Assembly (NCBI GenBank): GCA_022844125.1
Contig: JALHMI010000007.1
Location: 256,896 to 320,895 of the forward strand
Length of the DNA: 64,000 nt
Reading direction: 5' to 3'
From: Pirellulales bacterium
GTDB taxonomy: Bacteria; Planctomycetota; Planctomycetia; Pirellulales; PALSA-1355
Shown: piece by piece, positions 3,767-56,700 of the stretch
Layout of the letters: each line of letters opens with the position of its first letter
How positions within the stretch are numbered: position 1 is the stretch's first letter
Notes under the pieces: model-generated
The model's database searches: none
What the model saw: only the letters and a program-made list of their open reading frames with translations
What the model was told of the DNA's origin: nothing
Translations under genes and position numbers: made by a program

Positions 3767-3788
3767 TCACTTCGCGGAGCAAAGTTAA

Positions 3789-6224
3789 ATGATGCGCGTA
3801 GTGCGAATCGTGATTCTCAGCTCGACGATCGTCGCCGCCTGGCTTTCGTTGGCGCGGGCCAATGAAGAAACGCTGCGACTGTTGCCGGGCGACTTCACGC
3901 TCACGGGACCCAAAGCGCGGCAATCGCTGCTCGCGGAGAATTTCCGCGGCGACCAGGCGACCGGCCACGCGACCGAGGGCCTGACACTGGAATCCAGCGA
4001 TCCGGCGGTTGTGAGGATCGAGAACGGCGTGGCGATTCCTGCGGCAGACGGAACCGCGACGCTTACGGCCAAGGTGGGCGATCGCAGCGCGAGCGTTAAG
4101 GTGATGGTCGCCGACTTTGCGAAAGACTTCACCTGGAGCTTCCGCAATCACGTCGAATCGGTCTTCTCGAAGGCCAGTTGCAATGGCGGCGCTTGCCATG
4201 GCGCGCTGGCCGGCAAGAAGGGCTTTAAGCTTTCGCTCGGCGCGTTCGATCCGCAGGCGGATTATTTCTACGTGACGCGTCAGGCGCGGGCTCGACGCGT
4301 CGTGCTGAGCGATCCGGGGCGCAGCCTGCTACTGGAAAAGCCGACCGGCGCAGTGCCGCACAAGGGCGGCATTCGCTTTGCCGTCGATTCGCCCGAGTAT
4401 CAAGTGATTGCCGAGTGGATTGCCGCGGGAGCGCCCGGTCCGCAGGACAGCGATGCCCGGCTCACGAAGCTGGAGATGCTACCTGAGGCGGCGGTGCTCG
4501 CGGCCGACAGCAAGCAGCCATTGATCGTGCGGGCGCACTTCAGCGACGGTCACACCGAGGACGTCACGCGCTGGGCCAAGTTCACCAGCACCGACGAATC
4601 GGTTGCATCCGTGGACGATGGGGGGCTGGTAACAGTCAGCGGTCAGGGCGAGGCCGCGATCAAGGCCTGGTACTTGAGCTGGAACGTGATCGGCACCGTC
4701 AGCGTCCCTTACCAGCAGGAAGTCGACCCGTCGCTCTTCGCCAGCGCCCCGCGTGTGAACTTCATCGACGAACTTGCGCTCGAGAAGCTCGCGGGCCTGA
4801 ATCTACCCCCTTCGCCGCCGGCCACAGATGCCGAGTTCTTGCGAAGGGTGTACCTCGATACGATTGGCACGCTGCCGACCGCGGACGAGGCCAAGGCCTA
4901 CCTGGCGGAAGCTTCTCCCGACAAACGCGCGCGGCTGATCGATGACTTGTTGGCTCGGCCGGAGTTCGTCGATTACTGGGCGTATAAGTGGAGCGACCTC
5001 TTGCTGGTGAACAGCGAGAAGCTGGCGCCGCCGGCCATGTGGTCGTACTACCGCTGGATTCGCAACCAGGTGGCGGCGAACACGCCGTGGAACGAGTTTG
5101 CCCGGCAGATTGTCACGGCGACCGGCAGTACGCTGGAGAATGGCGCCGCGAACTTTTTCGTGCTGCATCAGGATCCGCCCGACCTGGCCGAGACGACGTC
5201 CGTTGCGTTCCTGGGGATGTCGATCAACTGCGCGAAGTGCCACAACCACCCGCTCGAGAAGTGGACCAACGACCAATACTATGGCATGGCCAGCTTGTTC
5301 GCCCGGGTGCGATCGAAAGAGGCCAACGGGACCGGCAACCGGGTGGTCTATCCGGTCACCAGTGGTGAGTGGATGCAGCCCCGGACCGGCAAGCCGCAAC
5401 CGCCCACGCCGCTGGATGGCGAGTCGGTCGCCTTCGACGCCGAGGCCGATCGCCGGGCGCATCTGGCCAAGTGGCTTACCTCGCCCGAGAACCCCTACTT
5501 CACGCGGGCGATTACAAATCGTGTATGGGCCAACTTCTTCGGCGTGGGGCTGGTTGAAAGCGTCGACGACTTGCGACTCACGAATCCGCCGAGCAATGAG
5601 AAGCTGCTGGCGGCGGCGGCCGATTATCTCGTCGAGCAGAAGTACGATCTCAAGTCGCTGATGCGAGCGATCCTCCAGTCGAACACCTATGCCCGGAGCA
5701 GTCAGCCGCTGCCCGGAAACATGGCCGATACGCGGTTCTACTCACGGTACTATCCGCGGCGAATGATGGCCGAAGTGCTGCTCGACGCGCTCTCGCAAGC
5801 GACTGGCTCGGAGACGAAGTTCAGCGGATACGCCCCGGGCACCAGGGCGATCGAACTGCCTGACGTCAACGTGGCCTCGTACTTCCTGCAGTCGTTCGGC
5901 CGGCCCGAGCGCGAGTTGACGTGCGAATGCGAGCGGACAGCCGAGCCGAGCATGGTGCAGGTTCTGCACCTGTCGAACGGTGACACGCTGAATCAGAAGC
6001 TGGAGGCGAAGGACAACGGCCTGTCGAAGCTGCTCGACGCGAATCGCTCGGACGCCGAGATCATCGACGAAGCTTACCTGGCGGCTCTGGCACGCTATCC
6101 CACGGAAGTCGAGAAGTCGCGGCTGGTGGCGGCGCTTGCCGAAGTGGGGGCGGATCGGCGGCTGCTGATTGAGGATCTGTACTGGAGCGTGCTCAGCAGC
6201 AAAGAGTTCTTGTTCAACCACTAA
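3789..6224 (+). CDS. DUF1549/DUF1553 (PSCyt2/PSD1) protein with Ig-like domains
   Basis: An 811-residue planctomycete protein. A signal peptide (residues 1-24) is followed by an Ig-like segment and a short cytochrome-like module with CNGGACH (C131, C136, H137). A second bacterial Ig-like (BIG2-type) segment lies around residues 245-310, then the DUF1549 domain from about 320. DUF1549 carries a standard CAKCH heme-type motif (C481, C484, H485). The C-terminal DUF1553 domain contains the conserved CECERT segment. The protein is expected to be extracytoplasmic and may bind heme. DUF1501 and DUF1549/DUF1553 genes are habitual neighbours in planctomycetes, which suggests one complex. A paralogue with the same layout is at 46359. 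The biochemical role of the family is not established. Confidence 0.93.
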   Translation: MMRVVRIVILSSTIVAAWLSLARANEETLRLLPGDFTLTGPKARQSLLAENFRGDQATGHATEGLTLESSDPAVVRIENGVAIPAADGTATLTAKVGDRSASVKVMVADFAKDFTWSFRNHVESVFSKASCNGGACHGALAGKKGFKLSLGAFDPQADYFYVTRQARARRVVLSDPGRSLLLEKPTGAVPHKGGIRFAVDSPEYQVIAEWIAAGAPGPQDSDARLTKLEMLPEAAVLAADSKQPLIVRAHFSDGHTEDVTRWAKFTSTDESVASVDDGGLVTVSGQGEAAIKAWYLSWNVIGTVSVPYQQEVDPSLFASAPRVNFIDELALEKLAGLNLPPSPPATDAEFLRRVYLDTIGTLPTADEAKAYLAEASPDKRARLIDDLLARPEFVDYWAYKWSDLLLVNSEKLAPPAMWSYYRWIRNQVAANTPWNEFARQIVTATGSTLENGAANFFVLHQDPPDLAETTSVAFLGMSINCAKCHNHPLEKWTNDQYYGMASLFARVRSKEANGTGNRVVYPVTSGEWMQPRTGKPQPPTPLDGESVAFDAEADRRAHLAKWLTSPENPYFTRAITNRVWANFFGVGLVESVDDLRLTNPPSNEKLLAAAADYLVEQKYDLKSLMRAILQSNTYARSSQPLPGNMADTRFYSRYYPRRMMAEVLLDALSQATGSETKFSGYAPGTRAIELPDVNVASYFLQSFGRPERELTCECERTAEPSMVQVLHLSNGDTLNQKLEAKDNGLSKLLDANRSDAEIIDEAYLAALARYPTEVEKSRLVAALAEVGADRRLLIEDLYWSVLSSKEFLFNH

Positions 6225-6272: not shown

Positions 6273-9200
6273 ATGAAGCGGTTACTCTTGAGCATAGCCT
6301 GTTTGTGCCTGTTCGCCAGCGCGGCGAGCGCTGTGGAGGCTCCGGCTGCGCAAGTTGACTACTCGACGCATGCGGCGCCGCTGCTTGCGAAATACTGCGC
6401 AGGCTGCCACAACGAGACCGAGCGCGAAGGCGAACTCGTGCTCCAGACGTTTGAGCACATCGTTGGCGAGGCGCCCAGCGGGCCGCTACTGGTACCCGGC
6501 AAGTCGGCCGAGAGCCGATTGATCAAGGTGCTTACCGGGCAGGAAGAGCCGGCGATGCCGCCGGACGATAACCCGCGTCCCAGCCCGGAAGAGATTGCGA
6601 AGCTGGCCGCCTGGATTGACGCGGGCGCCAAGAAGCCGAGCGGCGAAGCGCCGGACCCGACCGTGATCAACGTGCCGAAGATCGCGCCCCGCGGTGAAGT
6701 GAACGAAGCGCTTTCGGCGTTGGCCTACTCGCCTGACGGTAAGCTGCTGGCGGCGGCGCGGTTTAACTCCGTTGAATTGATCTCGCTGCCGGAGCGCAAG
6801 GTTGTCAAGTCGCTGGGTCCGCATCGCGGGCGGATCAACAGCGTGCGCTATTCAGCCGATGGAACGCTTGTGGTCGTTGGTGCGGGCGAACCGGGCGTCG
6901 TTGGCGAGGCACGCATCTGGCGAGTTGCCGATGACGAACCGGTCGCAACGTTCGCGGGACATGCAGACAGCGTGTACGCCGCTGCGCTCAGTCCCGACGG
7001 CAAGCTGCTGGCAACAGGTAGCTACGACCAGCACATCAAGCTGTGGGACGCAGCCTCGGGCAAAGAGCTGCGGACGCTCACCGGGCACAACGACGCGGTG
7101 TTCGATCTGGCGTTTCGCCCGGACGGCAAGATTCTGGCCAGTGCGAGCGGTGATCGGACGGTGAAGCTATGGGACGTGGCCAGTGGAGAGCGGCTCGACA
7201 CGCTGGGCCAACCGACCAAAGAGCAGTATTGCGTGGCATTCAGCCCGGACGGGAAGCGGGTGGCGGCCGGTGGCGCCGACAATCGAATTCGCGTCTGGCA
7301 GGTGAGCGACGAGGCCAAGGAAAACACGAATCCGATGCTCTATGCGCGGTTCGCCCACGAAGGGCCGGTCGTGAACGTGGTGTATTCGACGGATGGCTCG
7401 ACGCTGGTCTCGGCCGGCGAGGACCGGACGGTAAAGATCTGGGATGCCGTGGCGCTGAACGAGCGGCTGCTGCTGGAGAAGCAGAGCGACTGGGCGCCGG
7501 CGCTGGCCGTGGCGCCGGATGCGAAGTCGATTGCCGTGGGACGGCTTGACGGCAGCCTGGCGTTCTATGACGCACAGAGCGGCGATCTGATTCCGCCTCC
7601 CCCGCCACCGAAGCCGGAACTGGCGGCGCTGCCGGTTCGCGGCGTGCAAAAGGGAGTTGTCACGCGTGTTTCACTCAGCGGAAAGCATCTGGTGGATGCA
7701 ACGGCGGTGAAGGCCAGTCATGATGGAATTCAAGTGACGATCATCGGAGATCGGGCTGACGAGGCCTTGCAGGTGGACGTTCAACCGGCGGCCAATGTGC
7801 CGCGCGGGAAGTACGAGTTGTGGGTCGTCTCACCGGCCGGTGAGAGTGACCGGCGGCCTCTGTACGTGGATGAACTCCAGCAGCTTGCCGAAAGCGAGCC
7901 GAACGACGCGCTCGGCGAGGCCGACGTCACACCGCTTGAGGCAGGCGTGTGGGGCGTGCTTGCAGCGCAAGGGGATGTCGACCGCTTTAAGTTCAGCGCG
8001 AAGGCAGGCCAGAGCCTGGTCTTTGAGATCGCGGCGGCGTCGATCGGCTCCAAGGCTAACGTCGTGCTGACCGTGGCCGACGCCACGGGACGGGTGCTGG
8101 CGGATAACAACGATTTCGGCGGAACGAGCGATCCGCTGCTCGCGTTCCAGCCGCCAGTTGACGGCGAGTACATCGTCACGGTGAGCGACCTGATGCGCGA
8201 AGGAGGCGGCGCGCACTCGTATCGCTTGTCGCTCGGTGAACTTGCCGTGCCGACGGCCGTGTTCCCGCTCAGTGTGCCCGCAGACAATGAGAGCGAGGTC
8301 CTGGTCAGCGGTTACAACCTGCCGGCAGACTTGAAGGTAACGATTCCCGCGAGTCAGGCGGGCGAAGTCGAGGTGCCTCTGGATAGACAGCAGTTTCGTA
8401 TTCGCCAGCCGCTGAAAGTACTGGTGGGAACGCTCACCGAATCGCTGGAAGTGGAGCCGAACGATGTACCCGAGTCGGCCACCGTGCTCGCCGTTCCAGG
8501 TACGGTGAATGGCCGCAGCTTGTCGGCAGTCGGCGCGGGAGACGACGACTACTTCCGCTTCAAGAGCAAGGCGGGCGAAACCTGGATCGTCGAGACTGAC
8601 GCTCAGCGGCGCGGCGCGCCGACCGACACGGTGATCGAAGTGCTCGATGCGGAGGGTAAGCCGATCGAGCGGGTGCTGCTGCAAGCGGTACGCGATTCGA
8701 ACGTCACGTTCCGAGGAATCGACAGCGTCACGCGCGATTGCCGGTTGGTGAATTGGGAGGAGATGCAGCTCAATCAGTATCTCTATATCAACGGCGAGGT
8801 GGTGCGGCTGTTCCGCGCACCGCGCGGGCCGGACTCCGGCTTCTTGTTCTATGAGGGAGACGGCGGCAAGCGGTTGCTGTACTACGACACCAGTCCGACG
8901 GTCCACGCCGTGGAGACGCCGGCGTTCATCGTTGAAGCGCATCCGCCGGGAACGAAGTTAATCTCGACGGGCCTGCCGGTGTTCCCCGTTTACTACACGA
9001 ACGACGACTGTGCGCAGCGAAGGATCGGTAGCGACTCGCGTCTGACGTTCACCGCCCCGGGCGATGGCGAGTACCTGGTGCGGGTACGTGATTCGCGCGG
9101 CGCGAGCGGCGAAGAATACGGCTATCGACTCACGGTGCGACAACCTGCCCCCGGGTTCAATGTGAATGTTGGCGGCGGCGATAAGCCGGCAGCGGGTAGC

Positions 9201-9815
9201 GGCGATGAGTTCTCGGTGTCGGTCGAGCGGATCGACGGATTCGATGACGCGGTGACGGTTGAGATTTCAAACTTGCCGGAAGGCTTTACGGTCTCTTCGC
9301 CCGTGGTGATCCAGCCGGGGCACCGCGAAGCGCAGGGTGTGTTGTTCGCCGCGGCGGATGCGAAACAGCCGGCGGACGAACAGCTCAAGCAGATCAAGGT
9401 GCAGGCCAAGGCGATGATCGGTGACTCCGAGGTCGTTCAGGATGTGAAGGCCTTTGGTGGACTTAAACTGGCGGAAAAGCCGAAGCTGCTGGTGCGGCTG
9501 GAACCGGTGGAATTGACGATTGCGCCGGGTTCGACCGTGACGGCCACGATCAAGGTGGAGCGACACGGCTATGACGACCTGATCAAGTTCGAGGTGCAAA
9601 ACCTGCCGCACGGGATCATCGTGGACAACATCGGGTTGAGCGGAGTGATGATGCCCAAGGGCGAGAACGAGCGACGGATCTTCTTGACCGCCGAGGCCTG
9701 GGTGCCCGAAACCGATCGGTTGTGCTTTGCGGTGGAACAGCAGGCGGGTGGACAATGTTCCGCGCCGGTGATGGTGCACGTCTGGAAGCCGAGCACGCTG
9801 GCGGAAGCGAAGTGA
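6273..9815 (+). CDS. fused planctomycete cytochrome c, WD40 and PPC-domain protein
   Basis: A 1180-residue secreted protein, third gene of the cluster. The ATG at 6273 is preferred over an upstream TTG because it is followed at once by a signal peptide (MKRLLLSIACLCLFASAASA). Next is a planctomycete-type cytochrome c module with CAGCH (C42, C45, H46). WD40 repeats follow over about residues 145-440 (repeated VKLWD, VKIWD and LSPDGKLLA units), forming a beta-propeller. Two pre-peptidase C-terminal-like (PPC) domains begin at the ESEPNDALGEAD and EVEPNDVPESAT motifs; the second is interrupted by about 100 extra residues. Ig-like sandwich segments complete the protein. In the cluster at 40 kb the same parts are split between two genes. 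Likely part of an extracytoplasmic complex with the two upstream products. Confidence 0.9.
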   Translation: MKRLLLSIACLCLFASAASAVEAPAAQVDYSTHAAPLLAKYCAGCHNETEREGELVLQTFEHIVGEAPSGPLLVPGKSAESRLIKVLTGQEEPAMPPDDNPRPSPEEIAKLAAWIDAGAKKPSGEAPDPTVINVPKIAPRGEVNEALSALAYSPDGKLLAAARFNSVELISLPERKVVKSLGPHRGRINSVRYSADGTLVVVGAGEPGVVGEARIWRVADDEPVATFAGHADSVYAAALSPDGKLLATGSYDQHIKLWDAASGKELRTLTGHNDAVFDLAFRPDGKILASASGDRTVKLWDVASGERLDTLGQPTKEQYCVAFSPDGKRVAAGGADNRIRVWQVSDEAKENTNPMLYARFAHEGPVVNVVYSTDGSTLVSAGEDRTVKIWDAVALNERLLLEKQSDWAPALAVAPDAKSIAVGRLDGSLAFYDAQSGDLIPPPPPPKPELAALPVRGVQKGVVTRVSLSGKHLVDATAVKASHDGIQVTIIGDRADEALQVDVQPAANVPRGKYELWVVSPAGESDRRPLYVDELQQLAESEPNDALGEADVTPLEAGVWGVLAAQGDVDRFKFSAKAGQSLVFEIAAASIGSKANVVLTVADATGRVLADNNDFGGTSDPLLAFQPPVDGEYIVTVSDLMREGGGAHSYRLSLGELAVPTAVFPLSVPADNESEVLVSGYNLPADLKVTIPASQAGEVEVPLDRQQFRIRQPLKVLVGTLTESLEVEPNDVPESATVLAVPGTVNGRSLSAVGAGDDDYFRFKSKAGETWIVETDAQRRGAPTDTVIEVLDAEGKPIERVLLQAVRDSNVTFRGIDSVTRDCRLVNWEEMQLNQYLYINGEVVRLFRAPRGPDSGFLFYEGDGGKRLLYYDTSPTVHAVETPAFIVEAHPPGTKLISTGLPVFPVYYTNDDCAQRRIGSDSRLTFTAPGDGEYLVRVRDSRGASGEEYGYRLTVRQPAPGFNVNVGGGDKPAAGSGDEFSVSVERIDGFDDAVTVEISNLPEGFTVSSPVVIQPGHREAQGVLFAAADAKQPADEQLKQIKVQAKAMIGDSEVVQDVKAFGGLKLAEKPKLLVRLEPVELTIAPGSTVTATIKVERHGYDDLIKFEVQNLPHGIIVDNIGLSGVMMPKGENERRIFLTAEAWVPETDRLCFAVEQQAGGQCSAPVMVHVWKPSTLAEAK

Positions 9816-22895: not shown

Positions 22896-23131
22896 GGTTC
22901 GCCTGCGACCGGTTCGTGGCACTTCGGATGGGGTGATTGGGATGACTGGGAGTCGTCGCTGGTCGAGGAAGGTCACTTTATCGGTAGGGCTCGCGCAATC
23001 GTTAAAGTCAGCCTGTTTTATTGGCCGACCCTACTCAACGAAGCGCGGTGGAGTCGCACTGCGCTCGGGGCAGCTACGCACGTCCTGACCACTGTAACCC
23101 CTGGACGACTGGGCGGCAAAACGTGCATTCG

Positions 23132-27991: not shown

Positions 27992-28066
27992 AGCGCAACT
28001 GCACCCCTGGCTGTACCTCTCACTGGCACAATTCGCAGTCCTGCAACTGCGCTCACGGGTTCCAAG

Positions 28067-40138: not shown

Positions 40139-41647
40139 ATGCTTAGTGTTCTCGGTTCGGCGCGCAAGCTTTGCGGCGGCATGACGCGGCGCGATTTATT
40201 GCGGATCGGCGGGCTGGGCATAGCAGGCATGAGCCTCGCCGATCTGGCCAACTGGCAGGCCCTGGCCAAGGCCGACGATCAGCCCCGGCCGAAGTCGTTC
40301 GGTCGCGCCAAGTCGATCATCCTGATCCACCTCTACGGCGCACCGAGCCAGATCGAGTTTGTCGATCCGAAGCCAGACGCGCCGGTTGAGATTCGCGGCG
40401 AGCTGGGTTCGATTCCCTCGAGCCTGCCCGGCTGCGACGTCTGTGAGTTGCTGCCGACATTTGCCAAGGTGATGGATCGCACCACGGTGCTGCGGTCGCT
40501 GACTCACCCTTATCCGCTACATGGCGTGGCGTATGCGCTGACAGGCGTACCCACGCTGGACCTGCCCGCTGAGCTCAATCCGCGCGATCCGCGAAACTGG
40601 CCGTTCTTCGGCTCGGTGGTCGACTACGTTGAAGCCGAGCGGGTGGCTAGCGGACAATCGCCGCGGCGCGAAATTCCGACGAACATCGCCCTCCCGTTCA
40701 AGTTCTCCAGCCGGCGCGTGGGCGAAGTTCCCCGCGCGGGTCCGTACGCGACGTTCCTAGGCGCGGAGTACGATCCGGTGTGGACGGACTACGTCGGAAC
40801 AGCCACGAAGGGACTCGCCAAGACGCTCGGCGATAAGCGGTTCGACGATAATGACCCGTACATCGGTCTGAGCGAAGGCAGTCACTTCTATGTACCGGCG
40901 GCGACGAACCTGGTCGATGACGTGACGCTCGATCGGCTGGAGCGGCGGAAATCTCTGGTTGCGCAGATCGACTCCGCCCGAGCGCACCTGGCGACGAGTT
41001 CGCGCGGCAAGCAGCTCGACCGTTACCGTCAGATGACATACGAATTGCTCGAATCGGACAAGCTGCGCAACGCGCTTGATCTGCGCAAAGAAGACACGAA
41101 GATCCGCGAGCTGTACGGTCACACGCTGTTCGGTCAGTCGTGCCTGGCGGCGCGGAGGCTGGTCGAAGCAGGCGGCCGCGTGATCAGCGTGTTCTGGGAT
41201 GAGTACGGCCTGGCCGGCAGCGGCTGGGACACGCACTACAATCACTATCCGCGGATGCGCCAGGAGCTTTGCCCAGGCCTGGACCAGGCTTGGTACGGCC
41301 TGATCACCGATCTCGATCAGCGCGGACTGTTGGACGACACGCTCGTGGTTTGCACGAGCGAGCACGGTCGAACCCCCACGATCACAACCGGGCAAGGCGG
41401 CGGTCGCGATCACTGGTCGCGCGTGTACGCCTCGCTGCTGGCCGGTGGCGGAACGAAGCGGGGGCACGTCGTAGGCGCTTCGGACAAGCAAGGGGGCGAC
41501 GTGCTCGATCGCCCGATCAGCCCCAAGGATCTGCTGGCGACGATGTATTACCTGCTGGGTATCGATCATCACCAGATCGTGCACGACAACCTGAGTCGGC
41601 CGCTGCCGCTGGTCGATGGCGAAGTGATCTGGGAAGCGCTCGCGTAA
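40139..41647 (+). CDS. DUF1501 family secreted protein
   Basis: A 502-residue DUF1501 protein that opens the second surface/cytochrome cluster. Tat leader (MTRRDLLRIGGLG) preceded by a Cys-Gly pair (LCGGMTRR). Conserved segments are YGAPSQIEFVDPKP, FGQSCLAARRLVEAGGRVI, LDDTLVVCTSEHGRTPTI and GGRDHWSRVY, the same order as in the protein at 2306. GGAG lies 10 bases before the ATG. It is followed after 23 bases by a second DUF1501 gene, so the pair is probably translated from one mRNA. Exported, role unknown. Confidence 0.93.
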   Translation: MLSVLGSARKLCGGMTRRDLLRIGGLGIAGMSLADLANWQALAKADDQPRPKSFGRAKSIILIHLYGAPSQIEFVDPKPDAPVEIRGELGSIPSSLPGCDVCELLPTFAKVMDRTTVLRSLTHPYPLHGVAYALTGVPTLDLPAELNPRDPRNWPFFGSVVDYVEAERVASGQSPRREIPTNIALPFKFSSRRVGEVPRAGPYATFLGAEYDPVWTDYVGTATKGLAKTLGDKRFDDNDPYIGLSEGSHFYVPAATNLVDDVTLDRLERRKSLVAQIDSARAHLATSSRGKQLDRYRQMTYELLESDKLRNALDLRKEDTKIRELYGHTLFGQSCLAARRLVEAGGRVISVFWDEYGLAGSGWDTHYNHYPRMRQELCPGLDQAWYGLITDLDQRGLLDDTLVVCTSEHGRTPTITTGQGGGRDHWSRVYASLLAGGGTKRGHVVGASDKQGGDVLDRPISPKDLLATMYYLLGIDHHQIVHDNLSRPLPLVDGEVIWEALA

Positions 41648-41670
41648 CCACTTCGGCGGGAGCCGGCTGA

Positions 41671-43128
41671 ATGCTCAACGTGCCTGGCAACCCGCGACGC
41701 GTGTGCAGCGGCTGGACGCGGCGCCAGGTGCTTGAAGCCGGCGGAGCCGGCCTGTTGGGTCTGACACTGCCGAAAGTGCTCGCCGCCGAGACAGTCGCGG
41801 GCGCCGCGGTCCCTCGCGCGAAGAGTGTCATTTTTTTGTTTCTGTTTGGCGGACCAAGCCAGCTGGAAACTTTCGACATGAAGCCCGACGGGCCGAGCGC
41901 GATTCGCGGGCCGTTTAAGCCCATCCCGTCGCGAACGCCCGACCTGCGAATCTGCGAGCTAATGCCGCGGATGGCGGCCATCTCAGACAAGTACTGCGTC
42001 ATTCGAACGATGACGCATCCGTACAACGATCACTCGGGCGGGGCGCATTACATTCAAACGGGCCGGCCGTGGCACATTCCGATCGGCGGCGGATTCAATG
42101 CCACCGAGAAGGACTGGCCCGCGCACGGCTCGGTCGTCGACATGCTTGACTCGCGGGCGAGCAGCAACGTTGTTGATCGTGGCGCGGCGCGGGGCATGCC
42201 GAGCTTCGTTTATCTGCCCAACCGCCTCGGTCATTTGCAGGTGTTTTCAGCGAAGCTCGACCGGCCGGGGCAATATGCCGGCTGGCTGGGGCGCGGCTAC
42301 GATCCGCTGGCCACGGCGATCCGCCGGCGAGACGACAACGACAATCCATATTTCCGCGAGTGCACGGACGAGGACCTGAACTTTCAGATACAAGGTCTGG
42401 CGCTCACCGAGGGGTTGTCGCTCGACCGGCTCGAGGGGCGGCGCTCGCTGGTCGAGGAATTTGACGCCGCGCGGCGGCAGTTGGATCGCAGCGGGGCCGA
42501 GGCTTCGTACGATCAGTTTCGAAGGCGTGCGCTCGCGCTTGTCAGCTCCGAGAAAGTGCGCGAGGCGCTTGACGTTCGCAGAGAATCTGCAAGGACGCGG
42601 GATGCGTATGGCCGGCACTTGTTCGGGCAGTCGACGTTGGTCGCGCGGCGGCTGGTCGAAGCGGGCACCCGTTTTGTCACGGTCTGCTGGGATGCTCCGG
42701 ACGGCTATAGCTGGGATTCGCACACATCGAGCACCGATGTGAAACAGCATCTGGTGCCGGGGCTCGACCAGGCTCTCTCGGCTCTGCTGAGCGATCTCGG
42801 CGAGCGCGGACTGCTTGAGGAGACGCTGGTCGTGGCACTGGGTGAGATGGGACGTTCGCCGAAGGCCAATGCCAACTGGGGCCGCGATCACTGGAGCACG
42901 TTGTTTCCTGCGGTACTAGCCGGCGCCGGAGTGCACGGCGGGATGGTGCATGGCACCAGCGATCGCGATGCGGCTTATGCGCTCGATCACCCGACCAGCC
43001 CTGAAGATCTGGCGGCCACGATCTTCGAGCGGTTGGGAATCGATCCGGAGTTGCGGATCCTCGATCAACAGGCGCGTCCGGTGCCGCTGGTGGACGGCGG
43101 CCGCGTGATCCACGAGATCCTCGGTTAG
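41671..43128 (+). CDS. second tandem DUF1501 family secreted protein
   Basis: A 485-residue DUF1501 protein following the first at 23 bases. Its leader reads VCSGWTRRQVLEAGGAGLLGL, a Tat signal with the same CxGxTRR motif as the other two. Body motifs are FLFGGPSQLETFDMKP, FGQSTLVARRLVEAGTRFV, LVVALGEMGRSPKANANWGRDHW (EMGRSP where others have EFGRTP or EHGRTP) and a C-terminal PVPLVDGGRVI. Sequence divergence from its neighbour suggests an old duplication with distinct roles rather than recent copying. GGGAG precedes the ATG. Confidence 0.93.
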   Translation: MLNVPGNPRRVCSGWTRRQVLEAGGAGLLGLTLPKVLAAETVAGAAVPRAKSVIFLFLFGGPSQLETFDMKPDGPSAIRGPFKPIPSRTPDLRICELMPRMAAISDKYCVIRTMTHPYNDHSGGAHYIQTGRPWHIPIGGGFNATEKDWPAHGSVVDMLDSRASSNVVDRGAARGMPSFVYLPNRLGHLQVFSAKLDRPGQYAGWLGRGYDPLATAIRRRDDNDNPYFRECTDEDLNFQIQGLALTEGLSLDRLEGRRSLVEEFDAARRQLDRSGAEASYDQFRRRALALVSSEKVREALDVRRESARTRDAYGRHLFGQSTLVARRLVEAGTRFVTVCWDAPDGYSWDSHTSSTDVKQHLVPGLDQALSALLSDLGERGLLEETLVVALGEMGRSPKANANWGRDHWSTLFPAVLAGAGVHGGMVHGTSDRDAAYALDHPTSPEDLAATIFERLGIDPELRILDQQARPVPLVDGGRVIHEILG

Positions 43129-43298
43129 CCGATCCGCCGCACCGCCAGGATAGCTACGTAAATGTTCGAACTGTCAGAAGTTAGAAGTCGCCGCTCGGGA
43201 CCATTCCGCACGTTGTAAGTGACCACGCCAGAGATTAGGATGGTGCGTGGTTCGCTCCCGCCAGTTCCTGCCTCCCTCCCGCCCTACCTGAGCCTGCC

Positions 43299-46200
43299 AT
43301 GAAGCCATCGCTTGTTGCGGCGCTGCTGTTGGTCGCTGTGTTCGCGACGCTGGCTACGGGTCAGCCGCCGGCTGCCAGTCATTTGCTTCCCGGTGCCGTT
43401 CGACCCGGTGCGACGACCGACGTCGTGATTCATGGCGCGAATCTGGCCAGCCCCACGGGCATCTGGAGCGATGCGCCACTCACGTCGGAGCTGACGCCCG
43501 GCATTGAGGGCAATGGCACTAAGCCAGAGAGCGTGAGCTACCGCGTGACGGTTCCCTCGGAAGTCCCGCTGGGAGTGATCGGATTGCGGGTGGCCACGGG
43601 GCAAGGCATTTCGAATCTGAAGCTGCTGCTGGTCGATGACCTGCCGAGCGTGGCCGATGCGAACAGCAATCGCACGCCCGATGTGGCCCAGGTCGTGACG
43701 CTGCCGGTAGCGATCGACGGCTATTGCGATGGCGAGACGAGCGACTTCTATCGCTTTACGGCTGCGGCCGGCCAGCGCGTGGCCGTGGAGGTGTTTGCCC
43801 GTCGGCTTGGTACGCCGCTCGACCCAATGATTCGCCTGCTGACTCTGGATGGCCGAGAATTGGCGTTCAGCGATGATGATCCTTCGACCGGCGCGGACGG
43901 TCGCTTTGCCCATACGTTTGCCGAGGCTGGCGACTTCCTGCTGGAGATTCGCGACATTCGCTACCAGGGTGGCGGCAACTTCCGCTATCGTCTGCGGCTG
44001 GGCGATTTCCCGTTGGTCTCCGTGCCTTATCCGCTGGCCGTGCAGAAGGGGCAAAGTGCGAGCGTTCAGCTCGTGGGCCCAGAAGGAGTGCTCGCTCAAC
44101 CGGCAACCGTGGAGGTGCCGGCCGATTTTGCCGCGAAGCAGATTCGCGTGGCAACTCCCTCCACGCAGACCGCGAGTTGGGTCAGCGTCGTCGCCAGCGA
44201 TGTGGCCGAGCAGCTCGAAACAGAGCCGAACGACTCACCCGATACCGCGACCAGCGTGACACTCCCCGGCGCGATCAACGGCAAACTGGAGATAGCGGCG
44301 GACAACGACTGGTATCAGTTCACGGCCAAGGCGGGGCAGCGGCTGGTGTTCTCAGGCGAGACGAGAAGTTTCGGTTCGCCCTGCGATCTGTTCATGCGCT
44401 TGTACAACGCCGAGGGAGGCGTGCTGGCCGAGGCCGAGGACAATGGAAATGCCGAGGGGGCACTGAACTACACGTTCCCGGCGGATGGCAATTTTCGCCT
44501 GCGCGTGGAAGACACGAATCGCCGCGGCGGACCGGATATGGTCTATCGCGTGCTGGCAAGTTCTTATCAGCCAGGCTTCGACCTGGCGGCCGAGGCCGAA
44601 AAGCTCGATGCGCCGCAGAACGGCGTGTTCGTGGTCAAGGTGACGGCCGCACGGCGCGACTACAACGGTCCGATCACGCTCGCAGTCGAAGGGGCCGGCG
44701 ATTGCAAGCTCTCGAACAATATCATTCCCGAAGGCAAGCCAGAGACGACCGTCCATGTGACGGTGGGGCCATCGCTCACGCCGGGGCAATTGGGCACGAT
44801 CAAGATTCTTGGAACCGCGAAGGTGGGCGAAGCGGACTTCACGACGATAGCGAGCACGCAAGGCGCCCTGCGCACATGGCTGGCGGGGCTGCCCTATCCG
44901 CCGGCCGCATTCGACAGCGTGATCGGTTTGGGGATCGGTCCGGTGTTCCCGCAGTTCTTCACGGTTGCATCTCCCGCGCCGGTCGCTTCGCTGGTCAAAG
45001 CCGGTGCGACGGCGGCGATCAAGGTCAGCGTGGCTCGCACGAATGGTTTTGACGAAGCGGTGGCGATTGCCGTGGCCGACCTGCCGGCCGGAGTGACGGC
45101 GAAGCCGGCCACGGTTGCCAAGGGGCAAAGCGAAGTCGCCGTGGAGTTGGTCAGCGAGAAGACGATTCCGCCGGGCAAGTTTCCGGTGAAACTGGTCGGC
45201 AGCGCGAGCTTCCAGAATCAACCGCAATCGTTCACCTTCGACCAGGCCGCAATCGTGGGGCCGCCGCTGGCCGTGGCCTTTGCACCCGCGGGCACAGTGC
45301 CGGTCGGCGGCAAGCAAAAGGGGACCCTTACATTCACGGGCGACGTGGCCCCGGTGCCCGCACTGGCCGCCTATCAAGGTGGCGTGACCCGCGGTGCTGA
45401 CGGCCCTCGCGCGGCGGAGTTCGCCGGGTTTGCGGCGGACAACAAAGCGGCCGCGCTGTCGGGGGTGGACAAAGCGCCCGGTGATGACCGGCTGACGGCG
45501 GAGCTGCCCCTCGCGACGGGATCTGATTACAGCGTTGAGTTCTGGTTTTACAACACCCGCGACTTGAGCCAGCCGAATGCACCGGCGGTGTCCGGCTATC
45601 TGTTCAGTCGCGCTGGAAATGCCGACGCGGTGAACGCTCAGCCCGGCGATCATCTCGCGATCGGTGGCGTCGAGAGCTCGCCGCGTGACAAGCTGTTCTT
45701 CTATGACGGGCAGAACTTGCTGTCCGGCCGTACGCAACTCGCGCTGAATACCTGGCATCACGTGGCCCTGGTGCGAACTGGCGATCAGGTGCACGTGTAT
45801 CTGAACGGCGACGTGGCGAATCTCGAGATTCAAGGCGTTTCAGTCCCGCGGGCGACAAGCAACCAGATCGTGCTGGGCACGCGAATAGACGGGTATGCCC
45901 CATTCCAGGGGCGGCTTGACGAAGCGGCCGTGTTTGCGAAGGCGCTCGCGCCCGAGCAGGTGCAGGCGCACTTCGCCGCGGCCAAGGGGATGACGCCCGC
46001 GCGTGACGTGGTGCTGAAGGACGCACCGCTGGCCTACTGGCCGTTCGAGGAACTTGAAGGCGGCGTGGCTGCGAGCCTTGCGCCGCCGCAGCAGCGGTTG
46101 GTGAAGCTCGCCTGGCAGAACCTGGCGGCGGGGATCAGCGCTCCGAGTGAGATTGTGCTTGCTGGTGGCGCAACGGCGGCTGACGTTGAGTTGGCGGCAG

Positions 46201-46319
46201 CAGATTCCGTGGCGCCCGTGAAGATTGAAAACGTGATTGTGGCCGGCACGACGCGGGTCGCAGACGGCCCATTTACGGCCGAGTCGATGCCCGTGGCCGT
46301 GGAAGTGATTAAGCCCTGA
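43299..46319 (+). CDS. secreted multi-domain PPC and LamG protein
   Basis: A 1006-residue exported protein. The signal peptide ends about residue 24. An Ig-like segment precedes two PPC (pre-peptidase C-terminal) domains, at about residues 120-245 (YCDGETSDFYRFTAAAGQRVAVEVFA) and 305-420 (EPNDSPDTATSVTLPGAING). Ig-like or sandwich segments follow, then a concanavalin/LamG-type domain at about 710-900 (YSVEFWFYNTRDLSQ, LNTWHHVALVRTGDQVHVYLNG). No catalytic residues are seen. It lies between the DUF1501 pair and the DUF1549/DUF1553 gene. Its PPC portion corresponds to the C-terminal half of the fused protein at 6273. Likely a surface adhesin or carbohydrate-binding scaffold. Confidence 0.86.
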   Translation: MKPSLVAALLLVAVFATLATGQPPAASHLLPGAVRPGATTDVVIHGANLASPTGIWSDAPLTSELTPGIEGNGTKPESVSYRVTVPSEVPLGVIGLRVATGQGISNLKLLLVDDLPSVADANSNRTPDVAQVVTLPVAIDGYCDGETSDFYRFTAAAGQRVAVEVFARRLGTPLDPMIRLLTLDGRELAFSDDDPSTGADGRFAHTFAEAGDFLLEIRDIRYQGGGNFRYRLRLGDFPLVSVPYPLAVQKGQSASVQLVGPEGVLAQPATVEVPADFAAKQIRVATPSTQTASWVSVVASDVAEQLETEPNDSPDTATSVTLPGAINGKLEIAADNDWYQFTAKAGQRLVFSGETRSFGSPCDLFMRLYNAEGGVLAEAEDNGNAEGALNYTFPADGNFRLRVEDTNRRGGPDMVYRVLASSYQPGFDLAAEAEKLDAPQNGVFVVKVTAARRDYNGPITLAVEGAGDCKLSNNIIPEGKPETTVHVTVGPSLTPGQLGTIKILGTAKVGEADFTTIASTQGALRTWLAGLPYPPAAFDSVIGLGIGPVFPQFFTVASPAPVASLVKAGATAAIKVSVARTNGFDEAVAIAVADLPAGVTAKPATVAKGQSEVAVELVSEKTIPPGKFPVKLVGSASFQNQPQSFTFDQAAIVGPPLAVAFAPAGTVPVGGKQKGTLTFTGDVAPVPALAAYQGGVTRGADGPRAAEFAGFAADNKAAALSGVDKAPGDDRLTAELPLATGSDYSVEFWFYNTRDLSQPNAPAVSGYLFSRAGNADAVNAQPGDHLAIGGVESSPRDKLFFYDGQNLLSGRTQLALNTWHHVALVRTGDQVHVYLNGDVANLEIQGVSVPRATSNQIVLGTRIDGYAPFQGRLDEAAVFAKALAPEQVQAHFAAAKGMTPARDVVLKDAPLAYWPFEELEGGVAASLAPPQQRLVKLAWQNLAAGISAPSEIVLAGGATAADVELAAADSVAPVKIENVIVAGTTRVADGPFTAESMPVAVEVIKP

Positions 46320-46358
46320 GAAGACCAAGCCCCCGGAACGAAGCAAAGGGAGAGATCG

Positions 46359-48836
46359 ATGAACTGGAATTTGTCGAAGCCATGCGCGGCCGCACTTGCG
46401 CTCTGCTTGCTCGCGATATCGGGACTCGTTCGAGCCGAAGTGCCCGCGGCAGAGGCGATCGAACCGATCGTGGTCGGAACTCCCGAGCGGCTTGAAGTCT
46501 TTCCCGCGAAGATCAAGTTGGACGCGCAGAGCCGCGAATCGCACCTGGCAGTGACTGGCTTTTACGCCGACGGCTCGATGCAGGATTTGACGCGGGCGTG
46601 CGAAATCATTCCGGCCAGCGGCGAAGTTGTCCGCAGTGAAGGCGCTGTCGTTTACCCCGTGGCGAATGGCTCGACGGAAGTGACGGTCAAGGTGGGCGGA
46701 TGGGAAATCAAGGTGCCAACCGAGGTCGTCGATCAGGAGCAGCCGAATCAGATCTCGTTCGAGTATGGTGCGCTGGTCGCCCTCTCGAAACATGGCTGCA
46801 ACCAGGGCGCCTGTCACGGCTCACCCAGCGGCAAGGGAGGCTTCCGCTTGTCACTGAGAGCCTACGACCCAGTGCTTGATATCGAGACGCTCGTCCGTGA
46901 AGCGTTTAATCGCCGTACGAACCTGCTCGAGCCGGAGAAGAGCCTGCTGTTGCAGAAGCCGCTGATGGAAGTGGCGCATGGCGGCGGCCGGCGGCTGAAG
47001 AAAGGCGACATCGGCTACACCGTGCTGCGCGATTGGATCGAGCAGGGTTGTCAACTCGACCCGGCTGGCGCGCCAAAGTGCGTGAAGCTGGACATCTATC
47101 CGCGGGAGCGCGTGCTGATGCGGCCGGCGCACACGCAGCAGATGATCGCGCTGGCCCACTTTTCCGACGGCTCGGTGCGCGATGTAACGCGCTTGGCGTG
47201 CTACTCCAGCTCGGATGAGGCGATTGCCACGGTTGACGAAAATGGCCTGGTGGTTGCGCACGACCGGGGCGAGGCCGCGATTCTGGTCCGCTTCCTGGAT
47301 CATCTCGAAAGCTCGACGATGATGTTCCTCAAGCAGGTGCCGGGCTTCGAGTGGAACTCACCGACCGAGAACAACTTCGTCGATCATCACGTGTTCAAGA
47401 AGCTCGAACAGCTGCAGATTCTGCCCTCGGAGCTGTGCAGCGACGAGGAGTTCGTCCGTCGCGTGTACCTCGACGTGATTGGCATTCTGCCGACGGGCGA
47501 GGAAGCCCGCAGCTTCCTGGCGAGCACGGAACCGGACAAGCGGGCCAGGCTCGTCGATCAGCTTTTGGAGCGGCCCGAGTTCGCGGAGTTCTGGGCCTTG
47601 AAGTGGGGCGATCTGCTGCGGATTCGCAATGCCAAGGTTTCGAATCCCGGCGTGCACAAGTTCCATCGCTGGCTGGTGGCGGCGTTCCGCGATAGCATGC
47701 CGTACGATCAGTTCGCCCGCGAGCTGCTGACGGCAGATGGCAGCACGTTCGTCAATCCGCCGGCGAACTACTTCCGCACGGCGGCCGACACCAATGACTG
47801 CACCGAGACCACCTCGCAACTGTTCTTGGGCATTCGCATCCAGTGCGCGAAGTGTCACAACCATCCTTTCGAGCGCTGGTCACAGGATAACTATTACGGG
47901 ATTGGAGCGTTCTTCAACCGCGTGCAGCGCAAGCCGGGCGCCAACGCCGATGAACAAGTCGTCTGGGTGGCCCGCGGCGGCGAAGTGACGCAGCCGCGCA
48001 CGGGCAAGCAGATGCAGCCGTGGCTGCCGCTGGAGGGGGAAGCGGAGCTTTCCGGTGAAGACGATCGCCGCGATAAGCTCGTCGAGTGGCTGGTGAAGCA
48101 GAATAATCCGTTCTTTGCCAAGGTCGAAGTGAACCGTATCTGGGGGCATCTGCTCGGACGCGGCATCGTCGAACCGGTCGATGACTTCCGCGACTCGAAT
48201 CCTCCGGCGAGCGCCTCGCTGCTGGCAGCCCTGGCCGACGACTTCGCAGCCAACGGGTATGATCGCAAGCGCGTGATGCGGAACATTCTGGGCAGCCGCA
48301 CCTACCAGCTCAGTTCGCGCAAGAACGAGTTCAACGCGGCCGACGTGAAGTACTTCTCGCATGCCACGACACGGTTGCTCTCGGCCGAGCAATTGCTCGA
48401 CGCGATCTGTCGAGTGACCAGCGTGCCCGAAAAGTTCGCGGGTCTGCCCGCCGGCACGCGGGCCACTTCGCTGCCGAGCCCTGACGTGGAAAGCGACTTC
48501 CTGAAGGTGTTCGGACAGCCGGCGCGCGAGACGGCCTGCCAGTGTGAACGTTCGACGGACTCAAACCTCTCGCAGGCGCTGCAGATGATTAACGGCCCGC
48601 TTGTGCACTCGAAGGTTCGCGACGAGAAGAACCGCTTGCGACAGCTTGCGGGCGAAGGCAAGTCCGACGCCGAGATCGTCACCGAGCTGTACATGGCGGG
48701 GCTCTGCCGGCCGCCGAGCGAGCCCGAACTGTCCGCCGCGACGAAGCACATTTCCGGGGCGGGCGATCGTGTCCGCGGCTTGGAGGACGTGTGCTGGGCG
48801 ATTCTGAACGCCAACGAGTTCCTATTCCAACACTAA
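46359..48836 (+). CDS. DUF1549/DUF1553 (PSCyt2/PSD1) protein with Ig-like domains
   Basis: An 825-residue paralogue of the protein at 3789, with the same architecture: signal peptide (residues 1-27), Ig-like segment, short module with CNQGACH (C147, C152, H153), BIG2-like segment (SSDEAIATVDENGLVVA), DUF1549 with CAKCH (C496, C499, H500), and DUF1553 with CQCERS near the C-terminus. CAKCHNHPFERW and the W-K-W-G-D-L-L segment are highly conserved between the two. It starts 39 bases after the PPC/LamG gene, with GGGAGA before the ATG. Probably exported and possibly heme-binding. Confidence 0.93.
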   Translation: MNWNLSKPCAAALALCLLAISGLVRAEVPAAEAIEPIVVGTPERLEVFPAKIKLDAQSRESHLAVTGFYADGSMQDLTRACEIIPASGEVVRSEGAVVYPVANGSTEVTVKVGGWEIKVPTEVVDQEQPNQISFEYGALVALSKHGCNQGACHGSPSGKGGFRLSLRAYDPVLDIETLVREAFNRRTNLLEPEKSLLLQKPLMEVAHGGGRRLKKGDIGYTVLRDWIEQGCQLDPAGAPKCVKLDIYPRERVLMRPAHTQQMIALAHFSDGSVRDVTRLACYSSSDEAIATVDENGLVVAHDRGEAAILVRFLDHLESSTMMFLKQVPGFEWNSPTENNFVDHHVFKKLEQLQILPSELCSDEEFVRRVYLDVIGILPTGEEARSFLASTEPDKRARLVDQLLERPEFAEFWALKWGDLLRIRNAKVSNPGVHKFHRWLVAAFRDSMPYDQFARELLTADGSTFVNPPANYFRTAADTNDCTETTSQLFLGIRIQCAKCHNHPFERWSQDNYYGIGAFFNRVQRKPGANADEQVVWVARGGEVTQPRTGKQMQPWLPLEGEAELSGEDDRRDKLVEWLVKQNNPFFAKVEVNRIWGHLLGRGIVEPVDDFRDSNPPASASLLAALADDFAANGYDRKRVMRNILGSRTYQLSSRKNEFNAADVKYFSHATTRLLSAEQLLDAICRVTSVPEKFAGLPAGTRATSLPSPDVESDFLKVFGQPARETACQCERSTDSNLSQALQMINGPLVHSKVRDEKNRLRQLAGEGKSDAEIVTELYMAGLCRPPSEPELSAATKHISGAGDRVRGLEDVCWAILNANEFLFQH

Positions 48837-48861
48837 TCGCTGATTAGGCGGAGATCGTCCA

Positions 48862-50232
48862 GTGCTTCAACTACGAACAGTCGTCAACTTCGCGTGCGGC
48901 CTGGCAGCGCTGATCTCGTTTGGCGCTGCGAGCGCGGATGAGATGCCAGTCAGCTTCTCGAAGGACATCGCGCCAATCCTGGCCAAGAACTGCGGGGCTT
49001 GCCACAGTGCGGCCGAGGCCAACGGCGGTTACCAGGTGGGCAACTTCAATCTGGTGTTGAAGGCGGGCGACAGTGAAGCTCCGGCTGTGACTGCCGGCAA
49101 GCCCGAGGAGAGCGAACTGCTCACGCGCATCGCAACGGACGACGAAGGCCTGCGGATGCCGCAGGAAGCCGATCCACTTCCGGCAGAGCAAGTGGCGCTC
49201 GTCAAGCGGTGGATCGCCGAGGGCGCCAAGTACGATTCGGCCGACCCCGCGTCGCCGCTGGCCGATATCATTCCCAAGAGCGGTCAGCCGGATCCGCCGG
49301 AGAGTTATCGCCGGCCGATTCCGATCGCCGCCGTGGCCTTTAGCGCCAGCGGCGAAGAAGTTGCGGCCAGCGGTTATCACGAAGTCACGATCTGGAATGT
49401 CGCCAGCGGCACGCTCGCACGGCGGATCAAGAATGTGCCGCAGCGCGTGCAAGGGCTGGATTACAGTGCCGACGGTACGTTGCTGGCCGTCGTCGGTGGA
49501 ACGCCTGGCAGCTTCGGCGAGGTGAAACTCTTCAATCCGGCCGATGGCACGCTCGTAAAAGACCTCGGCTCGATGGCGGACGTGGCTTTTTGTGTGGCCT
49601 TCAATCCCCCTGGAACCAAGCTGGCCGTGGGGGGCGCCGACCGCACGATCCGGATCTACGACGTCGCCAGCGGCAAGCAGGAGATCCTGATCGAGGATCA
49701 CGCCGATTGGGTGGCTGGGCTGGCCTGGAGCGCGGACGGCAAGCGACTTGCCTCGGCCAGCCGCGACAAGACCTCCAAGCTCTTCAATGCCGAGAATGGC
49801 GAATCGCTGGTCACGTATTCTGGCCTCGGCGAGCCGGCCTTCGGCGTGGCGTTCAGCGGCGACGGCAAGCTCGTCTTCTCGGCTGGCACCAGCAAGGCAA
49901 TTCACGCCTGGAATCCGGACGACGGCGCTAAGAAACACCAGATCGGCGGCTTCTCGGGCGACGTGCTCTCGCTGCAAGCCCATGAGGACAAAGTGTTCAG
50001 CGGATCGGCCGATAAGACCGCTCAGCAGCATCGTGGCGCCGAGTTGAAGCACTTCAAGACGTATGCCGGGCTGGGCGACGCGGTCTACGCAATCGATTTT
50101 CACGCCGGTACGGGACGGATTGCGGCCGCGACTTTTGGCGGTGAAGTTCGCATCTGGAACGCAGAGGACGGTGCTCAGGTGACGAGCTTCGTCGCCGCTC
50201 CGGGATACACTCCGCCGATTGCAGCCAAGTAG
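48862..50232 (+). CDS. planctomycete cytochrome c plus WD40 protein
   Basis: A 456-residue protein closing the second cluster. Signal peptide (residues 1-25), then a planctomycete-type cytochrome c module with CGACH (C44, C47, H48), then a WD40 propeller over about residues 155-450 (VTIWNVASGT, IRIYDVASGK, VRIWNAEDGA). The GTG at 48862 has GGAG about 8 bases upstream and gives the signal peptide a normal start. It equals the N-terminal half of the 1180-residue protein at 6273 but stands alone here. It converges with the enolase-superfamily gene, 29 bases away. Confidence 0.91.
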   Translation: MLQLRTVVNFACGLAALISFGAASADEMPVSFSKDIAPILAKNCGACHSAAEANGGYQVGNFNLVLKAGDSEAPAVTAGKPEESELLTRIATDDEGLRMPQEADPLPAEQVALVKRWIAEGAKYDSADPASPLADIIPKSGQPDPPESYRRPIPIAAVAFSASGEEVAASGYHEVTIWNVASGTLARRIKNVPQRVQGLDYSADGTLLAVVGGTPGSFGEVKLFNPADGTLVKDLGSMADVAFCVAFNPPGTKLAVGGADRTIRIYDVASGKQEILIEDHADWVAGLAWSADGKRLASASRDKTSKLFNAENGESLVTYSGLGEPAFGVAFSGDGKLVFSAGTSKAIHAWNPDDGAKKHQIGGFSGDVLSLQAHEDKVFSGSADKTAQQHRGAELKHFKTYAGLGDAVYAIDFHAGTGRIAAATFGGEVRIWNAEDGAQVTSFVAAPGYTPPIAAK

Positions 50233-56378: not shown

Positions 56379-56700
56379 GCGTCACCTCCTGAAATAGAAA
56401 TAGGAAAGAATGAGGAAATGAGGAGCCTCTTCGCCGCGACCAGAAGAAATATGGCCGCATGCTTAGACAGGCTTAAATTTAGTGGGTAGCGCAGGGTGTG
56501 TCAAACAGGAAGTGCCGGTTTTCTGCGGAAACCAGTGGTTTGCGCGACCGCGCGAGCCTGTCAGTTCGGTGTCTTAATTGCCGCGCACTTTGCATCGCGG
56601 GCGATCAACCGATATAGTAGGCATTTGTCCACTGCACGCCGGCCTCGCTTGGTGCCCGCTGGGTGCCACTTTCCCAGCCCCGCTCGCAAGGAACGCGACC
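56379..56700. other. 322-base divergent intergenic region (DUF1559 / addB-like)
   Basis: It contains the DUF1559 promoter and an approximately 90-base leader that is locally AT-rich. The half nearer the AddB-like gene shows no clear promoter, RNA gene or repeat. An in-frame upstream extension of the AddB-like gene to 56578 lacks a ribosome binding site and is not favoured. Confidence 0.5.
56476..56504 (-). promoter_or_regulatory. sigma-70-type promoter of the DUF1559 gene
   Basis: On the minus strand, TTGACA (56499-56504, perfect) and TAAATT (56476-56481, 4 of 6) are separated by exactly 17 bases. The predicted start is near 56469, leaving a leader of about 90 bases before the ATG at 56378. 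Confidence 0.6.

Follow-up and report, generated by a model that had tools for sequence, protein, structure and literature searches.

Why should one planctomycete genome carry the same exported protein domains in two gene clusters, fused in one and split in the other, and what would such clusters make? The question is raised by a stretch of 64,000 nucleotides from a Pirellulales bacterium (assembly GCA_022844125.1, contig JALHMI010000007.1, positions 256,896 to 320,895), hereafter the window, which contains a left module at 2306-9815 and a right module at 40139-50232. Both are of the known PSCyt/DUF1501 kind of the Planctomycetes-Verrucomicrobia-Chlamydiae (PVC) group. Our comparative analysis indicates that they are copies of a conserved exported kit of four proteins: DUF1501, which is phosphatase- or sulfatase-like, the two-heme DUF1549/DUF1553 cytochrome, the one-heme PSCyt1-WD40 propeller protein, and the PPC protein, of a sugar-binding or adhesive type. 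The last three very probably work as one redox assembly, because every pair of them is found fused in some relative. A working association of the module parts is, in our judgment, highly probable. To the overall explanation, an exported multi-protein redox assembly of the Planctomycetota-Verrucomicrobiota group with the roles proposed below, we assign a probability of about 0.5.

Two modules of homologous parts

Domains in the window were assigned by Pfam search, which recovered every domain named in a first-pass annotation made from the sequence alone. As described there, the left module consists of a DUF1501 gene, a DUF1549/DUF1553 gene and a gene for a cytochrome-WD40-PPC fusion of 1180 residues, and the right module of two DUF1501 genes, a PPC/LamG gene, a DUF1549/DUF1553 gene and a separate cytochrome-WD40 gene. 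DUF1549 and DUF1553 were found in both respective proteins with Pfam E-values of about 1e-45 to 1e-51, far over the cut-offs. For the open reading frame (ORF) of the fusion at 6228-9815, WD40 was found in the window search, and PSCyt1 and PPC were recovered by genome-wide searches; counted from an in-frame ATG at 6273, which GGAG precedes, the protein has exactly 1180 amino acids. The genes of the right module all lie on the plus strand with intergenic gaps of 23, 170, 39 and 25 bases, and 106 bp separate the DUF1501 and DUF1549/DUF1553 genes of the left module, also on the same strand. Sigma-70 promoter and terminator scans gave signals at chance level only, and an NCBIfam search gave nothing useful.

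Two stretches of the fused protein have a counterpart in the right module: residues 15-366 align with the PSCyt1-WD40 protein (35%, 366 columns, E 1e-49) and residues 473-810 with the PPC protein (28%, 352 columns, E 2e-30). The tail of the fusion carries TIG/PPC, without LamG. The fused halves are thus true homologs of the separate proteins, so the earlier statement that the same parts are fused in one cluster and split in the other holds beyond domain names. The two DUF1549/DUF1553 proteins share 41% identity over 787 columns.

A FastTree phylogeny of 175 DUF1549/DUF1553 segments groups the proteins by gene order. The left type belongs to a clade of 40 (support 99), and a clade of 19 (support 100) holds the right type. 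A third type, in which PSCyt1-WD40 is fused to DUF1549, shares a 31-member clade (support 100) with split relatives, one of them from the source genome (L005). The separate clades identify the window modules as old paralogs, each with its own stable gene order. That the two clusters are one cluster before and after a fusion event was also considered and is ruled out by their different well-supported clades and different gene orders. The PPC-DUF1549 fusion has at least two origins, since L055, L056 and L227 are separate from L098 in the tree.

Gene orders and fusions among relatives

In the first survey, 148 genomes were searched with the separate PSCyt1-WD40 protein, and neighboring ORFs were scanned with profiles from the window proteins; the query gave 107 matches in 43 of the genomes. 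An independent second scan of named genomes added 80 further loci with the same orders, extending to Verrucomicrobiota and to metagenome-assembled genomes labelled Omnitrophota and Hydrogenedentota. As its genomes may overlap those of the first survey, the counts are kept apart.

Both window gene orders are found repeatedly in Planctomycetota, and the fused one in Verrucomicrobiota as well. The order DUF1501, PPC, DUF1549, PSCyt1-WD40 has 26 exact copies, to which the right type of the window adds one extra DUF1501, and the left-type order DUF1501, DUF1549, PSCyt1-WD40-PPC has 12. A single PSCyt1-WD40-DUF1549/DUF1553 protein of about 1700 residues followed by DUF1501 is found in 17 copies, and the order DUF1549, PPC, PSCyt1-WD40 in seven.

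Fusions that unite the three parts comprise PSCyt1-WD40-PPC (17 and 19 ORFs), cytochrome-WD40 with DUF1549 (19), PPC with DUF1549 (4), and PSCyt1 with DUF1549 without WD40 (3). PPC is joined to the front of DUF1549 in L055, L056 and L098. The first two are the closest relatives of the right module, and have as one gene, as does L227, what in the window are two neighbors. The first-pass annotation had taken the fusion in one cluster and separation in the other as a sign that the parts interact. The contrast within the window links only cytochrome-WD40 with PPC and is silent on DUF1549 and DUF1501; the links of the other parts to DUF1549 come from the fusions elsewhere (19 and 4 ORFs).

Linkage agrees with the fusions. 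Among 106 PSCyt1-WD40 genes, 89 are linked to a DUF1549 gene of the CX4CH type described below, 20 within the same ORF and 69 on the same strand within 7 kb. Over the 148 genomes, cytochrome-WD40 and this DUF1549 type are both present in 42, the former only in 1, the latter only in 13 and neither in 92. The Fisher p of 3e-24 for this co-occurrence is descriptive only and not a true probability, as the genomes are related and limited candidates were scored per genome. Chance-level co-occurrence with DUF1549, which the first-pass annotation had named as evidence against its proposal, was thus not observed. In seven of the 148 genomes the right DUF1549 protein has a close relative, and in all seven its PSCyt1-WD40 partner has one too, although the two genes are far apart in four of them.

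Several loci depart from the common arrangements. In four genomes of one family (L051-L054 and L153-L156) the right-module orthologs are scattered, with PPC and DUF1549 together and cytochrome-WD40 alone, distant or on another contig. The cytochrome-WD40-PPC fusion genes of L112, L113, L129 and L130 are solitary, with no DUF1549 or DUF1501 within the fetched flanks. In the Verrucomicrobia loci L215, L220 and L229, a PSCyt1 without WD40 fronts the CX4CH-type DUF1549, and a divergent PSCyt1-WD40 gene lies nearby on the opposite strand. Two cytochrome-WD40 orthologs (G078:C1:6656216-6657472 and G089:C4:1543569-1544885) have one in-frame TAG each inside the match.

The source genome (6.44 Mb in 27 contigs) has 39 PSCyt2 matches and 63-64 DUF1501 matches. 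A same-strand DUF1501 lies within 6.5 kb of 37 of the 39 PSCyt2 genes; random placement gave a mean of 2.8 and a maximum of 8 in 2000 draws. The PSCyt2 copies fall into 26 canonical and 13 divergent ones, and five of the divergent copies adjoin a PSCyt1 or PSCyt1-WD40 gene: those of the two window modules, L001, L002 and L005. L001 (DUF1501, PPC, DUF1549, PSCyt1-WD40) shows the right-module order again. About a third of the DUF1501 loci (22) have no PSCyt2 neighbor, for example C26:29150-30361 and C1:49639-50913, and just one of these adjoins DUF1800 (C4:205332-208313).

Alternatively, the genes could be clustered because abundant planctomycete families share their inheritance and were amplified, with no working complex behind it. 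The families are indeed very numerous, and PPC and WD40 are common fusion partners in general. However, linkage in 37 of 39 cases stands against the random mean of 2.8, gene order is stable inside old clades spanning several phyla, several separate fusion events unite the same three parts, and the partners are retained though unlinked in four genomes. We regard this explanation as very improbable.

Table 1. Genes of the two modules, with predicted signals and domains.
Feature	Coordinates	Strand	Remarks
DUF1501 protein, left module	2306..3682	+	TRRDFLQ twin-arginine signal; Pfam E 4e-106
DUF1549/DUF1553 protein, left module	3789..6224	+	Ig - divergent PSCyt1 (CNGGACH) - Big_2 - PSCyt2 (CAKCH) - PSD1; predicted diheme cytochrome
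Fused PSCyt1 (CAGCH) - WD40 propeller - TIG/PPC/PPC protein	6273..9815	+	1180 aa; ORF opens at TTG 6228
DUF1501 protein 1, right module	40139..41647	+	TRRDLLR twin-arginine signal; Pfam E about 1e-78
DUF1501 protein 2, right module	41671..43128	+	TRRQVLE twin-arginine signal; Pfam E 1.5e-91
TIG/PPC/PPC + LamG-like (concanavalin-like) protein	43299..46319	+	Sec signal; homolog of the tail of the left fused protein
DUF1549/DUF1553 protein, right module	46359..48836	+	Ig - divergent PSCyt1 (CNQGACH) - Big_2 - PSCyt2 (CAKCH) - PSD1; predicted diheme cytochrome
Separate PSCyt1 (CGACH) - WD40 propeller protein	48862..50232	+	Sec signal; Pfam PSCyt1 E 1.8e-12, WD40

The DUF1549/DUF1553 protein as a predicted diheme cytochrome

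Both window DUF1549/DUF1553 proteins contain C-N-x-G-A-C-H (CX4CH) near residue 131 and CAKCH in PSCyt2. These two heme motifs, and two bacterial Ig domains, were overlooked in the first-pass annotation. In the two surveys, 95 of 98 and 79 of 80 copies retain the CX4CH motif, and the CXXCH of PSCyt2 (33/33 and 80/80) is present in every readable surveyed copy except one with ambiguous bases. Profile-profile comparison with hhalign revealed the CX4CH region, which is below Pfam detection as PSCyt1 in the window proteins, as a PSCyt1 homolog (99% and E 4e-18; 0.7% for the reversed control). In this alignment the MPP motif of PSCyt1 has its Met near the invariant His of the CX4CH domain (His191, conserved across 66 aligned sequences), and the CX4CH heme would accordingly have His-His ligation where PSCyt1 has His-Met.

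The DUF1549/DUF1553 protein is therefore a predicted diheme cytochrome with a divergent PSCyt1 and a PSCyt2, and each module, with three heme-attachment motifs, would be redox-active in each of its two central proteins. To judge from the motifs, heme binding by the module proteins is likely. A non-heme DUF1549 protein, with the separate cytochrome as the sole redox part, was considered and rejected on account of the two motifs. The earlier proposal that each cluster builds an exported, possibly redox-active assembly is strengthened by the linkage and the recurring fusions; it missed the diheme character of the DUF1549 protein itself.

The AlphaFold2 model of the left DUF1549/DUF1553 protein has a mean confidence (pLDDT) of 91.5, and in a structure search of PDB its Ig domains match leptospiral Lig and S-layer proteins. 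By sequence, the only solved homologs of the DUF1549 protein were for the Ig domain, in teneurin-like proteins. Big_2 (residues 224-306 of the protein at 3789-6224) matches the repeated N-terminal domains of the teneurin-like 9ifo and 9pt5 (E 3e-23, four repeats).

DUF1501: export and predicted fold

The twin-arginine translocation (Tat) system exports proteins in the folded state; c-type hemes, in contrast, are joined to chains that Sec has threaded unfolded. A twin-arginine motif precedes the DUF1501 domain in 113 of 113 and 54 of 54 copies in the two surveys, and all three window copies have one; a comparable regular expression hits the other module parts in 8 of 323 cases. DUF1501 is never fused to other module parts (0/116 and 0/57). 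Most simply, DUF1501 would remain a gene of its own because Tat exports it folded, whereas its partners need periplasmic heme attachment and, as Sec proteins, can be joined. The Tat signal on DUF1501 was noted earlier (PMC5122149).

Sequence search found no useful solved homolog of DUF1501; comparing its profile with PDB sequences returned 19 weak matches, nearly all sulfatases or LtaS, with GEFGRTP aligned on GDHGR. The AlphaFold2 model of the left DUF1501 protein (pLDDT 84) aligns with nucleotide pyrophosphatases/phosphodiesterases at VIA-align Z 19.9 and a root-mean-square deviation of 3.3 over 249 residues; 475 chains reach Z of at least 8, and Foldseek lists LtaS and sulfatases. The model thus predicts an alkaline-phosphatase-superfamily fold. 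D71, H124, D317, H319, D379 and H380 are invariant, and position 133, a candidate for the Ser/Thr (or formylglycine) nucleophile that follows the first metal Asp, is T or S in 57 of 57 sequences and is followed by an invariant Gly. After the core strand, where the superfamily has its D-H metal motif, 147 of 172 DUF1501 sequences have E-F, 2 have D-H and 1 has E-H, which we read as a putatively altered metal site. The DUF1501 protein at 40139-41647 is one of the few copies with EHGR in place of EFGR.

These observations also bear on the possibility that the assembly is structural or adhesive, with PPC, LamG, Ig and WD40 as a scaffold, a degenerate DUF1501 site, and hemes that store electrons or stabilize folds. 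Most of the domains are adhesion or scaffold types, the Ig domains resemble those of Lig and S-layer proteins, and the D-H motif is mostly E-F. On the other hand, 57 diverse DUF1501 sequences show no variation at the remaining predicted active-site positions, and both DUF1549 heme motifs are kept in nearly all copies, which would be odd for decoration. We consider a purely structural assembly unlikely.

A probable distant link to DUF1800

In other bacteria DUF1501 pairs with DUF1800, for example beside chitin synthase genes (PMC5122149). DUF1501 adjoins DUF1800 in all 30 planctomycete DUF1800 loci read, and the two families match in the same 2 of 14 control genomes. A collinear hhalign alignment relates DUF1800 to PSCyt2-PSD1 (89%, E 2.5e-6, 366 columns; reversed control 0.2%), and canonical PSCyt2-PSD1 gave 70%, E 4e-5. 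A DUF1800 profile run over 13,081 ORFs gave ten matches, all ten at one spot in DUF1553. The Pfam PF08811 cut-off was not reached, with one sub-threshold match (E 5e-4) to a DUF1553-containing ORF of the source genome. None of 31 DUF1800 proteins has a CXXCH heme motif.

By these profile comparisons, DUF1549/DUF1553 is probably a heme-bearing distant relative of DUF1800; the literature searched, with partial coverage, contained no paper stating this kinship. A wider proposal, which we rate just short of an even bet, is that DUF1549/DUF1553 is the heme-bearing branch of DUF1800 and the numerous Planctomycetota and Verrucomicrobiota clusters of the PSCyt/DUF1501 kind are redox-upgraded forms of a widespread two-protein DUF1501 and DUF1800-like system. 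The window type would add a bis-His-like CX4CH heme and the cytochrome-propeller and PPC subunits, and the use of Tat versus Sec would explain the unfused DUF1501.

A proposed assembly and its weighing

As predicted computationally, the core of each cluster is the Sec-exported diheme protein, with the CX4CH PSCyt1 and the CXXCH PSCyt2 between Ig domains, followed by DUF1553. Encoded with it are a Sec-exported one-heme PSCyt1 on a WD40 propeller, a TIG/PPC protein with or without LamG, and the Tat-exported DUF1501 protein. The assembly would be located at the surface or in the periplasm, anchored on a glycan or the cell surface by its PPC, LamG and Ig parts. DUF1501, which would fold and take up its metal in the cytoplasm and only then be exported, could bind or cleave the substrate at a phosphate ester, a sulfate ester or a related group. 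From the bound substrate or product, the diheme protein could then accept an electron and pass it to the PSCyt1-WD40 protein, which would dock via its propeller and relay the electron to the respiratory chain. The heme-free DUF1800-DUF1501 pair of other bacteria would represent the ancestral two-protein version. The proposed division of labor, with DUF1501 acting on an ester substrate and electrons passing from the diheme protein through PSCyt1-WD40 to respiration, is speculative, and we would sooner bet against it than for it.

Several points weigh against the assembly as proposed. Two of the five modules of the window's type in the source genome have no nearby DUF1501, and 17 of the 106 cytochrome-WD40 genes have no nearby DUF1549 partner, so close linkage is not obligatory. 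The E-F motif may mean that DUF1501 is non-catalytic or has other chemistry. The similarity to DUF1800 is remote, with the strongest signal over about 70 columns. A PDB structure search with the whole diheme model gave matches to Ig domains only, and a substrate-oxidizing part was not recognized. We infer heme attachment, metal content, catalysis and physical contact alike.

The assembly could instead serve the degradation or modification of (sulfated) polysaccharides, where DUF1501 would hydrolyze in the manner of a sulfatase or phosphodiesterase and the cytochromes would oxidize the sugar. In freshwater Verrucomicrobia, PSCyt genes adjoin sulfatases and carry carbohydrate-binding module or LamG domains (PMC5615132); the right module has LamG, and the best sequence-profile matches of DUF1501 are sulfatases. 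However, neither cluster encodes a glycoside hydrolase, lyase or classical sulfatase, LamG, searched with a single-seed profile, matched only the window's own PPC protein and may not be a general part, and the densities of PSCyt and glycoside hydrolase genes are inversely correlated (PMC5615132). This role seems to us rather unlikely. The exported redox assembly remains our preferred reading.

Comparison with known systems

The protein families, the DUF1501 neighborhood and the fact that PSCyt genes can carry Big_2, WD40 and LamG have been published (PMC5615132, PMC4452313, PMC5587647). PMC5615132 defines PSCyt architecture groups I-III and lists Big_2 and WD40 among the domains of PSCyt genes, and DUF1501 clusters go back to Kamneva 2012 in the form in which PMC4452313 cites it. 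A tested function for the PSCyt, DUF1501, DUF1549 or DUF1553 families was not found in the literature searched. Four findings are new as far as we searched: the complete fusion triangle, the recognition of the CX4CH domain as a PSCyt1, the strict Tat and no-fusion pattern of DUF1501, and the DUF1800 link.

With the canonical PSCyt1-PSCyt2-PSD1 and DUF1501 pair of Planctomycetes and Verrucomicrobia (domains of Rhodopirellula baltica), the window type shares the PSCyt2-PSD1 core with its CXXCH and the DUF1501 neighbor. In contrast to the canonical pair, its PSCyt1 is divergent, with CX4CH and a conserved His, and escapes Pfam, two Ig domains are extra, a PSCyt1-WD40 protein (separate or fused) and a TIG/PPC protein are added, and DUF1501 is mostly upstream instead of downstream. 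The DUF1800-DUF1501 pair likewise has a twin-arginine DUF1501 beside a partner with a common C-terminal core, but has no Ig or cytochrome domain and no WD40 or PPC gene within the short flanks read.

With the alkaline phosphatase superfamily, including phosphodiesterases of the nucleotide pyrophosphatase type, sulfatases and LtaS, DUF1501 shares the predicted fold and the conserved D, DxH and DH positions, and its conserved T/S is a candidate nucleophile; it differs in having mostly E-F for D-H and a large helical insert at about residues 215-300. Quinohemoprotein amine dehydrogenase, with its diheme/Ig alpha subunit and separate beta-propeller subunit, offers a loose likeness, and 1jmx and 1jju appear in the structure lists. 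The window protein matches about 85 residues of one Ig domain, without a quinone-cofactor subunit, and we claim no kinship.

Other genes in the window

Just beyond the right module, two consecutive genes at 51633-54559 encode dynamin-like GTPases with DUF697. At 56578-63521, an AddB-like and a UvrD/AddA-like gene overlap and form a recombination nuclease-helicase pair. An ORF of 1021 residues at 23021-26086 has no Pfam match at 1e-5, and a HlyD/MacB-type export gene set lies downstream of it at 26270-29380.

Implications

Few exported proteins of planctomycetes are as numerous as those of the PSCyt, DUF1501, DUF1549 and DUF1553 families, which were first described from Rhodopirellula and have no assigned function. 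The fusion triangle points to three proteins for co-expression and purification, and the fold prediction would make DUF1501, a domain of no known role, accessible to tests as a metallohydrolase-like protein. If true, the DUF1800 link would tie a PVC oddity to a gene pair of Caulobacter, Deinobacterium, Dickeya and other bacteria, some of them genetically manipulable.

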